In this document: piece by piece, positions 53,929 through 64,000 of the stretch
Layout of the letters: every line of letters starts with the position of its first letter
Position numbering within the stretch: position 1 is the first letter of the stretch
Source of the DNA: Acanthamoeba castellanii str. Neff
Taxonomy: Eukaryota > Discosea > Longamoebia > Acanthamoebidae
DNA: 64,000 nt
Assembly (NCBI RefSeq): GCF_000313135.1
Contig: NW_004457702.1
Span: forward strand, 357,410-421,409
Direction: 5' to 3'
Translations under genes and position numbers: made by a program
Notes under the pieces: generated by a model
Told to the model about the DNA's origin: nothing
The model's input: the letters and a program-made list of their open reading frames with translations, nothing else
Databases searched by the model: none

Positions 53929-56038
53929 ATGAAGTCACTGCTGTCCTCTTCGTTGGGGCGGCAGTCGCCCTCGTTCACGCAGAGGATGGAGGCCAAGAAG
54001 CGGCAGGAGGAGGAAGAGGAGGCGCGCAAGCGACGGCACTCATCGTCGCCCCATCACCATCAGCGATTGGGCCTTTCTTCTTCTTACAACGGCCCTTCGA
54101 CCCTTCGGTCCTTCCTCTACAGCAACTCCCCGTCAACTGCACAAACAAATGCACCCGACACGGCAACTAGCGATGAGGATTCCTCAATGGAAACGATGGT
54201 GGTAATAGAGGGCTTTCTAACGAAGCAGGGCCAACGATTCAAGACGTGGAAGAGGAGATGGTGCGTTGTACTCGCCGATCCCCCTGCGTCACGCAGCGGC
54301 ACGCCCAACGTAGAACGAGACGATCTCCAGGAAGATGGTGAACGGCAACCGCGACCACTTGGGCGAAAGGGCAAACTCTACTACGCCAAGCAGCCCCAGG
54401 TACAACCCACATTCACACAATCACGAATTCAATATTGATTTTACAGTATTTTATTTTATTCGATTTTGATTTTATTTTGGTGGTGCCTTTGTAGAGCCGC
54501 AGTTCTCGGGGCGAGGTGACGCTGGACCACTTCTCGGTGCTCGACATCAGCACAGGTACCACCAATCCGCCACCTTCCCACTTGTCGCCTCTCTCTTGTG
54601 CTAATCTTGCCTGGAAAATGGCGTTGTGCCCTGCAGGCAGCCTCGATGAGGAGGCGATGGCCCTGCTGCCCAGCGACCTGATGCCAACGGGCCACTGCTT
54701 CTGCGTGAACACGCAAAAGCGCGTTTACTACTTCTGTTGTGACACGGCGGAGGATCTGGTGAGATGGCAGCGCGCCCTCCAGTCGCTCATGCCCCACAAC
54801 CAGAACCGTGCGTGCCTCCTCTGCTCTCTCTTTTCGCGTGTGCGTTCCATCTTTGCTGATCCAACCGTCGGTCGGCACCAGCAGGATCGGACGACGACAT
54901 CCAGCAAAGGCAGCCGCGGCTAGAGCGGGAGGTGAGGCATCTCTTCCGAGACATCTGCGAGGTCATGCGCGACCACGACGTGGATGGCGGCAACGTCGAC
55001 GAGAATCATCACCACCACGACAACGACGACGACGGCAGCAGCAGCCACGTCAACGGCGATGACGACAGCGACCCCGAAGAGGCTGACTACGTGGCCAAGG
55101 GGAAGGAGGCGATCCGCGATGGCTCCTTCAGCCCCGGCAGCCAGAAGAAGAAGAAGGGGAACAGGAAGGAAGAGCAGCGGCGCGAGAAGGAGAGGGAGTG
55201 GCTGCGAGTGATCGAAGCCGAGGTGCAGCAGGCGGAAACGATCGAGGACGAGGACGAGCGACGGGAGGAGTGGGTGCGCCTCAAGCAGGCCCTCACCAAG
55301 GGCATGGAGCGGGCGCTGCTTCACTCCGACCGGCGGCGAGCGGAGCTCACCCTGCGCGCGGCAGCGGCCAAGGCGTCGTCGATGATGGCAGACGGCAGCA
55401 CCAGCACTAGCGACGAGAGCGAGGGAGAAGCCGCCAAGAAGCAAAAGAACGAAGAAGGCAAGGACCAAAAGAACGAAAGCGATGGCGCAGCTGCGGCGAA
55501 AGAGCGAAGGAGCGAGAGCGGCGCCGCGGGCCGGCGCCGCGAGGGGACGCGACGGGCGGGCGGCCGCGATGAAGACGACCAGGACGACGGGTGGAACTCC
55601 GACGGGTTCGACACGTCACGCGAGGCGACCCTAGCGCGCGAGATCATGGGGAAGCGAGGCGATGACAGTGGACACCGCGACGATGAGGGTCTATACGGCG
55701 ATGACAGCGACGGCGGCTTGGATGACCAGGGGAGTGACGACACCGAGGACGAAGAAGACGGTCTGCTCGAGTCGGACAAGCGGAGGCACGCGAAGCGGAA
55801 GCGGAAGAGCCGGCAGGGCCGAAAGAAGGCGCCCACGCGGCGCATCTACAGCTACGGCCAGGAGGAGAACATCGGGTTCGAGGGCGAACCCGAGACTGAG
55901 CAGTCGTTCGCCGGCGGTGGCGGCACCTATGGGACCTACGGCGCGCAACGAAAGAGCGGCGACGACGGCCACCAACGCGACTTTGATCCGACGAGGACCT
56001 CGTCCTCGTTCTCCTTCTGGTCCTGCTTCTGCTGTTGA
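53929..56038 (+). CDS. PH-domain protein with long charged tail
   Basis: The ATG at 53929 opens MKSLLSSSLGRQSPSFTQRM. A PH domain starts EGFLTKQGQRFKTWKRRWCV (54205), continues GKLYYAKQPQ, joins across an intron to SRGEVTLDHFSVLDIS, then GHCFCVNTQKRVYYFCCDTA and EDLVRWQRALQSL with the invariant tryptophan (54760). The KxnKxWKRRW loop fits phosphoinositide binding, as known for the fold. After another intron comes a His/Asp-rich stretch (NHHHHDNDDDGSS), a Lys/Glu coiled coil, and an Asp/Arg-rich region (GDDSDGGLDDQGSDDTEDEE). The protein ends SSSFSFWSCFCC, TGA at 56036. The terminal cysteine cluster could be lipidated; that is inference. Confidence 0.85.
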
Positions 56039-56270: not shown

Positions 56271-57273
56271 ATGTGCCAATGCGGCGAGGAGGACTGGGCG
56301 TGGTGCTGCAATCGTTTGTGCGAGCCCTGCAGCAGCACATGCTGCGATGGAGATGATTTCTGCGACGTGACTGGTGCAGGCAAAAAGTGCTGGTGTGCGC
56401 CCCTGTGGCCCCTCGTCTTCTACTCGCGTTCGCACGATTGCAAGCCATGCAGCTTCTTTCGATTCCTGCCCTTCCTGTTCACCCTCTCCATCCAGCCGCA
56501 CGGATCGCGATCTTCATCGTTCTTCTTTAGCTTCCTCGTGATCCTCTTCAGCATCAGAAAAGAGGAGCACCGTCTTAGCATCGACATCCTCTACCCGCTC
56601 ATCAGCTTTCAATTCACTTGGCACCAACTTGAAGGAAGCGACTACGACGAGGAGCGTTCTGTACAGCATCTGGTACGCGGACGGCGCCAAGCGAGGTATG
56701 GACCATCCGTCAATCTCGAAGATGGAGTCGTTGCAGCTGTAGACGAGTCCGGATCTCAGCTGTTGTGGACGATCGATTTCCGTGTGCTGCCCATTCTGCT
56801 CGGGCATTGGTCACCCAAGCGAGCCTGGATCATGTCCCTCGCTCCTTTGCCACTCTACTTCTCCTTCAGGTATAAACACGCTGTCTCGCTCACATCTCTC
56901 TTCTCCTCTTTGCGTCATCTTTGTATCAATCAATTCGGCTCTCTATGGCGATCAACAAACTCACCAAACTGCCTTTGTCTCGCGCTGTGCAAAGGCGGAA
57001 GCTGGGTCTGTTGATGAATCAAGAGCCGAGCGTGGAGCTCCAGTTGCACGTCGTGCCTCTCGTGTCCTTCTACTACCACGACGAGCCGCGCTCCTTCACC
57101 GCCTTCTTCACGCTCTTCTACGTGCTCTACTTCCACCGCCTCAGCTCCACCCCGCCGTACCTGGCCAACGGGCAGACCACCTACTGGTCCCTCGTCGTGT
57201 TCCCTCTCCTCTGGGTGTTCAGGTGGAACGACGGCTGGACCGTCTCGCTCTTCAGTACAGACATCATTCCCCT

Positions 57274-57307
<34 letters not shown>

Positions 57308-58195
57308 GGCGCGCGCGCGCGATGGTACGTGTGCGATGGTGCGTGTGCGTGTGGTCGTGGCCTCACATACTTTTACTCTGTCAAGTGGTCTTGTGGGTCA
57401 GTGCCAGCAAGGCCGCGGTGGTCCTCGTCATCTTCCCCATCTTCTGGTTGATCTACACCAAAGGCGAGGTACGCACCGCGCCACGCAAACACACACGCGC
57501 GTGCTCGTTGTCACAATCGTTGGCGCGTTCGAACCCCCCACTCGGGTGTGCCCCGTGGTCGTGCAGGCGATCAGGGTCATGGTCCTATTCGTGTTGTGGC
57601 TTTCGATCAACCCCAGCACATCAAGGGTGCGTGCTCTCTCCCGCGCTCCCCTTGCTTGCGCTTTCACTGCGCACTCACCGCACTCACCGCACACACCGCA
57701 CACCACACGATTCATAACAGGTTCACTTGATGCTCCTGTTCCTCCTGTGGATGCACTGTGGCTGGGGCCGCAACTGTCGGTTGGGCCTCGTCCTGGTCCC
57801 GTTCCTGTGGGTGCAGTACGAGAAGCAGCTCTCGCTCCTCCACGGCGCCCCGACCTACTACAAAGCGCGGGTGTGGCTCGTACCATTCTTCTTCTTCCGA
57901 CAGCTCAGCCACGATCAACGGTGCCACTTTCGAGCCCCTCACCTCTCGCACCATGTATACAACTGACCCTGTGTGCGGTGTGTGCGGTGGTGTGTGCGGT
58001 GTGTCTAGGAGCGTGTGTTTGTTCCCACTGTTCTACGTGAGCAAGGACGACACGGCGACGGACAGGTCGGTGCTGTGGTCGGTCCTCATGCTACTCTGGT
58101 TCCGTTCGAGCCGGTCCGCGCACTCGACCCACAAGTGCTGCTTCCTCCCGCCCGTCTTCTACTGCAGCTCCTCGGCCTGCCCTCGCTGCTTTTGA
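56271..58195 (+). CDS. FPLLW-repeat protein (about 17 aromatic/proline repeats), unknown function
   Basis: Not a family I can name. The proposed ATG at 56271 opens a Cys-rich head (MCQCGEEDWAWCCNRLCEPC). The rest consists of units of about 14-25 residues with the pattern hydrophobic-hydrophobic-F/L-P-L/I/F-hydrophobic-W/Y/F-x-F/Y then polar/charged: PLWPLVFYSRSHD, FLPFLFTLSIQPHG, DILYPLISFQFTW, LAPLPLYFSFRRK, HVVPLVSFYYHDEP, VVFPLLWVFRWNDG, VIFPIFWLIYTKGE, VLVPFLWVQYEKQ, WLVPFFFFRQLSHD, CLFPLFYVSKDDT, FLPPVFYCSSS. Several splices preserve this (AG/GCGGAAG at 57000; A/TGGTC at 57384; GAG/GCGATC at 57566). It ends SSACPRCF, TGA at 58193. The repeats could be transmembrane hairpins or strands of a beta array. 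Plus-strand third-position GC and the repeat itself support this strand. Confidence 0.65.
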
Positions 58196-58311: not shown

Positions 58312-58670
58312 AGATCGTGGCCTTTGCTGGCTCCACCCATGGAGCCCCACGTCGAGTTGCGCGTCGTGACCCATCTCGTCTGCCAGCTGCCGCTCTTCGA
58401 CTCTGACCTCGAGGCCGCCGAGGGCTTCACCGGCGCAGTGAGCGAGTGGCGCGAGGCCCTGCGGGCCGCCGACGCGCTGCTCAGCCGACACGGCGTTCCT
58501 CATCGCCGCCCCCGAGTACAACTACTCGGTGCCGTACCCGCTCAAGAACGCCATCGACTGGGCCTCGCGGCCCGACGACGCCACCTACTCGTCCTCCCGG
58601 CGGCCAACAAGCCCGTGGCCATCATGGGCGCGATGGGCACCAGTCGGGCGCAGTACCACCTGCGACAGGT
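58312..58670 (+). pseudogene. Broken copy of the NADPH-dependent FMN reductase
   Basis: Reads KIVAFAGST, then lacks about 21 residues present in the intact gene at 29.2-30.0 kb, then matches it almost exactly: HVELRVVTHLVCQLPLFDSD through EWREALRAADALL. A short insertion after GCGCTGCTCA shifts frame, so the conserved APEYNYSVPYPLKNAIDWAS continues in a different frame. A single-base loss in TCGTCCTCC near 58593 shifts it back to AANKPVAIMGAMGTSRAQY, and the match ends near 58670. The rest of the gene is absent. High nucleotide identity suggests a recent duplication. Confidence 0.9.

Positions 58671-58796: not shown

Positions 58797-64000
<5,204 letters not shown>

Follow-up and report, generated by a model that had tools for sequence, protein, structure and literature searches.

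An amoeba protein family built from an aromatic 'FPLLW'-type repeat shares its unit with proteins of Bacteroidota

The window analysed here is a 64,000-nucleotide stretch of the Acanthamoeba castellanii str. Neff genome (contig NW_004457702.1, positions 357,410 to 421,409). On its plus strand, at 56271-58195, lies a gene for a protein that consists along nearly its whole chain of a short aromatic repeat. The gene runs from an ATG at 56271 to the last base of the stop codon at 58195; six exons, separated by GT-AG introns and joined in frame, encode 462 residues. This model was picked after enumerating the frame-keeping GT-AG and GC-AG options. Exon 1 (56271-56869, followed by a GTATAA donor at 56870) encodes a Cys-rich head (residues 1-42) and then, as judged by eye, units 1 to 6, the fourth of which is followed by a long polar loop. 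The units of exon 2 (56995-57254) include HVVPLVSFYY and VVFPLLWVF; exon 3 (57386-57468) holds the unit VLVIFPIFWLIYTKGE, and exon 4 (57567-57626) the unit VMVLFVLWLS, which has no proline. Exon 5 (57721-57920) contributes VHLMLLFLLW, LVLVPFLWVQY and VWLVPFFFFR, while exon 6 (58009-58195) adds VCLFPLFYV, VLMLLWF and CCFLPPVFYC, the C terminus and the stop codon.

A sequence-only reading of the window had already placed a repeat protein of at least six exons here. Its coordinates were exact, and the gene, frame and strand are borne out by an ortholog, P0001 (448 residues, 85-87% identity), which is encoded without introns on a 1440-base contig. P0001 agrees with the model at every exon and aligns without a gap across all five splice junctions; the exact 10-residue junction strings are identical at two of these and carry one or two substitutions at the other three. 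Because P0001 is continuous over all junctions, it looks like a transcript of the orthologous gene. Its source is labelled 'lgn', which we take to be an assembly of public reads. A frame error and the wrong strand were both considered and dropped, as P0001 speaks against either. Searched against some 5.8 billion predicted proteins (expectation value E ≤ 10), the window protein matched just two, P0001 and P0002. The latter comes from a metagenome, where a near-identical gene was called without its introns being spliced out, and is thus a wrong gene model in its source. The head has 13 cysteines in its first 60 residues (counted by eye), in line with the earlier description of a Cys-rich head before the repeats, and is only partly conserved in P0001 (9 cysteines in the first 47 residues). 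By eye it is polar and not leader-like; as a guess, it might carry lipid anchors.

We counted about 18 units by eye in the window protein, each of about 18 residues; the initial estimate was about 17, and the five segments quoted in its support are all present. Some units have no proline, such as VMVLFVLWL and LMLLFLLWM. A unit profile built from 456 units of ten bacterial proteins only (introduced below), and scored against each amoeba protein's own composition, was applied with a threshold set low, at 99.5% of shuffled positions. In the window protein it marks 14 places, compared with a mean of 2.0 and a maximum of 6 in 200 plain shuffles. One of these places, at Pro254, sits in a loop and looks spurious. 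The best off-diagonal self-alignment of residues 41-462 scores 97, against 39.95 ± 5.6 (maximum 56) in 60 plain shuffles, and hydrophobicity is periodic at a lag of about 18-21 residues.

The amoeba genome (38.4 megabases, 250 contigs) encodes a second protein of this kind. Searched with P0001 (E ≤ 10), it gave eight matches, six of them in the window gene, one on contig C133 (E 0.001) and one on contig C190 (E 0.08). The C190 match (locus L009) was dropped, as its frames show no repeat by eye. The paralog on C133 lies on the minus strand (locus L010, 6010 to 3650); its six exons encode 645 residues. Among 36 frame-keeping splice models two tied as best, and we took the one of 645 residues, which is backed by P0003 (576 residues, from a contig of 1979 bases; 99% identity over 89% of the query). 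P0003 has four of the five paralog junction strings exactly and the fifth with two substitutions; it starts within exon 1, which leaves the start of the paralog unconfirmed. The unit profile marks 27 places in the paralog (plain shuffles: mean 3.0, maximum 9), and both amoeba proteins thus carry a repeated [LIV]FP[LI][YF]W unit at a spacing of about 17-18 residues.

The window protein and its paralog are identical at 99 of 376 aligned residues. Introns 1-3 have equal phases in the two genes (2, 1 and 0) and lie at alignment columns 205/204, 292/292 and 320/320, that is, within one column for the first and in the same column for the other two. Introns 4 and 5 do not agree, leaving three of five in common. 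We read the shared positions and phases as the trace of an old duplication inside the eukaryote lineage. The amoeba family comprises two genes; as the searches give a lower bound, this means at least two.

The paralog also opens the way to bacteria. Searched against the same proteins (E ≤ 10), it matches 13, namely P0003 and twelve others (P0004-P0015; E 7.5e-22 to 1.1e-3). These bacterial relatives have 430-1128 residues and carry the amoeba-type unit. This link to bacteria came to light by way of the paralog alone: the window protein itself reached only its ortholog and the unspliced metagenomic copy. An organism is given for two of the twelve: one belongs to a Bacteroidales bacterium, the other to a Tenuifilaceae bacterium. 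When genomes, one for each species, were scanned with a bacterial profile (A3), 226 stretches fitted the pattern and 25 of these encode relatives; they fall into 22 loci, all recorded under Bacteroidota lineages. As the scan relied on two signatures of the Bacteroidota proteins (one of which is C-terminal) rather than on the repeat itself, it would miss members in other lineages. Among 296 evenly drawn Bacteroidota genomes, P0003 and P0006 each match one, the genome used as centre. The probes thus do not match at random, and the family looks rare in Bacteroidota. In four genomes picked because they hold members, P0003 matches all four; the 21 matches among those listed all fall inside open frames of 1071-1579 residues. 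The open frames of three loci (L024, L037 and L041) span 1439-1579 residues, those of other bacterial members 787-1245, and the number of units differs as well; this wide spread suggests that repeat number is free to evolve.

Eight bacterial loci were viewed by eye. In five, the repeat frame starts with a cleavable-looking leader; the bacterial relatives are probably exported. No neighbour recurs by eye among the eight, so genome context gives no function. Further searches added no relatives: a profile search (A1) gave no members beyond those of the direct window-protein search, an amoeba alignment (A2) run against genome contigs gave 528 pattern stretches without a relative, three scans of viral contigs gave none, and plasmids held no match for P0006 or P0015. 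PHROGs returned nothing for P0001, P0003 or P0015 and two matches at E 0.07 for P0006. Six phage records found by tblastn at E 2-4, five under a major capsid protein E feature and one unannotated, were taken as chance. Taken together, the original observation is confirmed, and its reading widens from a single odd eukaryotic protein to an amoeba family that shares its unit with bacterial proteins.

The unit had been described as matching no named eukaryotic repeat. This stands as far as Pfam is concerned: the window protein matches no family at E ≤ 10, MORN included (HMMER filters drop most matches above about 0.1), and P0003 none at E ≤ 1. It does not stand in the sense of a eukaryotic peculiarity, since the repeat is also bacterial and bacterial members weakly match NCBIfam NF047486 (LA_1737_Cterm). 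Four of seven tested do so (P0015 at E 2.6e-5, P0006 at 4.4e-5, P0011 at 0.004 and P0004 at 0.005), whereas P0001 and P0003 give no match at E ≤ 1. A search of the amoeba genome with NF047486 was silent, as were its controls, and is thus uninformative. Pfam matches to bacterial members are few and all under the curated cut-offs. By sequence, the window protein finds only two unrelated PDB chains (E 0.45 and 0.96) and the bacterial profile nothing at E ≤ 1. LA_1737 yields only papers on tomato and mosquito in open-licence PubMed Central. The string TPLFW occurs once in a construct sequence, printed twice, of a paper on P. aeruginosa PA1624 (PMC7716261) whose text does not use the word 'repeat'.

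Do the amoeba and bacterial repeats share an ancestor, or did they converge? We compared phmmer scores against 12 bacterial proteins with those of class-preserving shuffles, which keep the aromatic, aliphatic, proline and polar pattern and are a stricter null than plain shuffles. The paralog reaches 95.7 bits at best, against 1.1 when reversed and a mean of 22.2 (standard deviation 10.3, maximum 43.5) in 40 shuffles; the window protein reaches 43.9, against -3.5 when reversed and a mean of 5.1 (standard deviation 4.7, maximum 18.4) in 40 shuffles. Both thus exceed every shuffle. Moreover, the choice of residues within classes around the proline agrees between amoeba and bacterial units (1.01 against -2.67 ± 0.52, reached by none of 2000 shuffles), in a test that used 37 amoeba units, some of them doubtful. 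Scores above the class-preserving shuffles and shared within-class residues make common origin somewhat likelier than convergence.

Several results qualify the repeat or its link to bacteria. The class pattern alone supplies part of the phmmer score. In the window protein, seven of the 14 profile places lie under zero bits, as do three of the 27 in the paralog. Class-preserving shuffles of the window protein (n = 100) give self-alignments with a mean of 59.1 (standard deviation 12.2, maximum 101), and one in 100 reaches its score of 97. Taken alone, the window protein therefore shows a repeat beyond its own class pattern only at about the 1% level; chance low complexity was dropped on the shuffle tests, this one shuffle notwithstanding. 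The paralog takes away most of the doubt about the repeat, as its self-alignment scores 365 against 164.2 ± 22.9 in such shuffles, none of 100 reaching it. The reciprocal search is weaker: P0004 finds three places in the amoeba genome, all in the paralog gene and at best at E 0.06, and P0015 finds none. Finally, only the repeat is common to the two groups; the C-terminal signature IFW[LF]IR[IL]RSN, conserved in the bacterial alignment, is absent by eye from both amoeba proteins. Convergence, in which proline-broken aromatic beta-strand repeats drift to one consensus, has a substantial chance of being right, although the position-specific residue choice and the phmmer scores speak against it. 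It is compatible with any of the folds discussed below and was weighed apart from them.

Structure models are all-beta, with moderate confidence for a bacterial relative and low confidence for the amoeba protein. The sequence-only reading had offered either re-entrant hairpins or a stacked beta array; both models show a beta array, and the hairpins survive as a rival only. The alternation of hydrophobic residues that it described along the chain was not found. Along the window protein, the autocorrelation of hydrophobicity is positive, with +0.16 at lag 1 and +0.21 at lag 2. Around the proline, the two faces of a putative strand are about equally hydrophobic. Both findings speak against a water-filled barrel, and also against an amphipathic belt of the simple kind. 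The hydrophobic cores are runs of 5-15 residues with a mean of 7.9 (7.6-8.1 across the amoeba proteins, 6.1-6.7 in seven bacterial ones). Since these cores leave no polar face, the sheet would not be free in water and would lie against or in lipid.

We tentatively propose, at somewhat less than even chance for the whole, that the protein is a long beta-sheet array with its hydrophobic faces buried in lipid, and that its repeat probably shares an ancestor with the bacterial repeat. The units, about 18 residues each, would supply beta strand and be linked by polar or charged turns, and the whole chain would form one long, mostly single-layered sheet in which neighbouring strands are probably antiparallel. 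The sheet fold is fairly likely, judging by the models. The lipid role is one that we infer: the sheet would lie against or in a membrane or lipid droplet, with its charged turns at the lipid-water border, and would serve as a scaffold, either for structure or for holding lipid. The window gene and its paralog would descend from the duplication described above. A bolder version, in which an open, non-barrel array of hydrophobic, aromatic strands in or on a membrane has lipid on both faces, and in which the amoeba acquired the repeat from a protein of the bacterial envelope before duplicating it, introns included, seems improbable to us.

As the main rival we consider a protein scaffold that stands free or stacks on itself; a second copy or a partner, not lipid, would shield its hydrophobic faces, in the manner of MORN-repeat or CPAP/TCP10 sheets. 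The better, bacterial model does resemble such proteins best (MORN1, CPAP/SAS-4 TCP10, ApoB and OspA), and the window protein has no Pfam lipid-binding domain. MORN- and CPAP-type sheets have largely polar faces, whereas here both faces around the proline are hydrophobic and runs extend to 15 residues; together with the lack of any Pfam family, MORN included, this makes the scaffold rather unlikely. In another reading, the protein sits in the membrane as short hairpins, helical or re-entrant, whose proline-kinked cores each dip into the bilayer from one side. This would account for several cores of 9-15 consecutive hydrophobic residues with charges at their flanks, and for 19-residue stretches that are favourable on an octanol scale (scoring up to 11.0 for the window protein and 13.0 for the paralog). 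A helix that crosses the membrane needs more length than most cores offer, however, the bacterial runs are shorter still on average, V, I, F, W and Y are beta-formers and both models are beta, so we consider hairpins improbable. Least probable of all is a closed transmembrane beta-barrel, for example in the mitochondrial outer membrane, as the hydrophobic/polar alternation is missing, both faces are about equally hydrophobic, the model is of low confidence and the 27 places that the same scan marks in the paralog leave strand number free; low-confidence fold matches of the amoeba protein to porins and ApoB were not taken as proof.

The unit is without a Pfam model in the window protein or P0003, yet in an amoeba and in Bacteroidota it takes up almost the entire chain of its proteins. 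If confirmed, the finding would mean a repeat common to different domains of life, and would raise the structural question of what keeps a long sheet stable when both its sides are hydrophobic. To our knowledge, few known structures show an open, non-barrel beta sheet in or on a membrane, so localisation and structure would be informative either way.

The surrounding frames are of other kinds. Upstream, at 54495-56038 (+), lies a frame with a piece of a PH domain, after which a 392-residue frame, acidic and of low complexity, ends in FSFWSCFCC and has no Pfam match. Downstream, at 58351-58582 (+), two pieces of an NADPH-dependent FMN reductase (PF03358) are adjacent in different frames, possibly owing to an intron, a sequence error or gene decay. 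Part of an intron-bearing helicase gene, with Helicase_C pieces in two frames, lies at 58816-60335 (-) and converges on the repeat gene; we read it as SNF2 type.

How does the array compare with known systems? The open sheets of MORN, CPAP/SAS-4 TCP10 (G-box) and OspA share only 4-8% sequence identity with the bacterial model, and the amoeba-type faces are hydrophobic and aromatic; for MORN, no Pfam match exists in the window protein. The beta belt of Apolipoprotein B-100 superposes on the amoeba model, itself unreliable, with a root-mean-square deviation of 11.4 Å and 4% identity. ApoB strands are amphipathic, whereas the amoeba strands are seemingly hydrophobic on both faces, and an ApoB/vitellogenin lipoprotein N-terminal domain was found neither by Pfam nor among the unrelated chains of the PDB sequence search. 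NF047486 comes closer, but the bacterial relatives stay under its 60-bit cut-off (24.2 bits at best); given these sub-cut-off matches and the silence of P0001 and P0003, LA_1737 is a distant neighbour rather than the family of the amoeba protein. The closest likeness is with the Bacteroidota FPLFW-repeat proteins (P0004-P0013, loci L020-L041), labelled 'hypothetical protein' or not at all. Here, as in the amoeba, a unit of about 17-18 residues with an [LIV]FP[LI][YF]W core and polar turns fills nearly the whole chain. Unlike the amoeba proteins, they have no introns, start with a leader-like segment in five of the eight loci viewed, bear conserved start and end signatures and have shorter hydrophobic runs.
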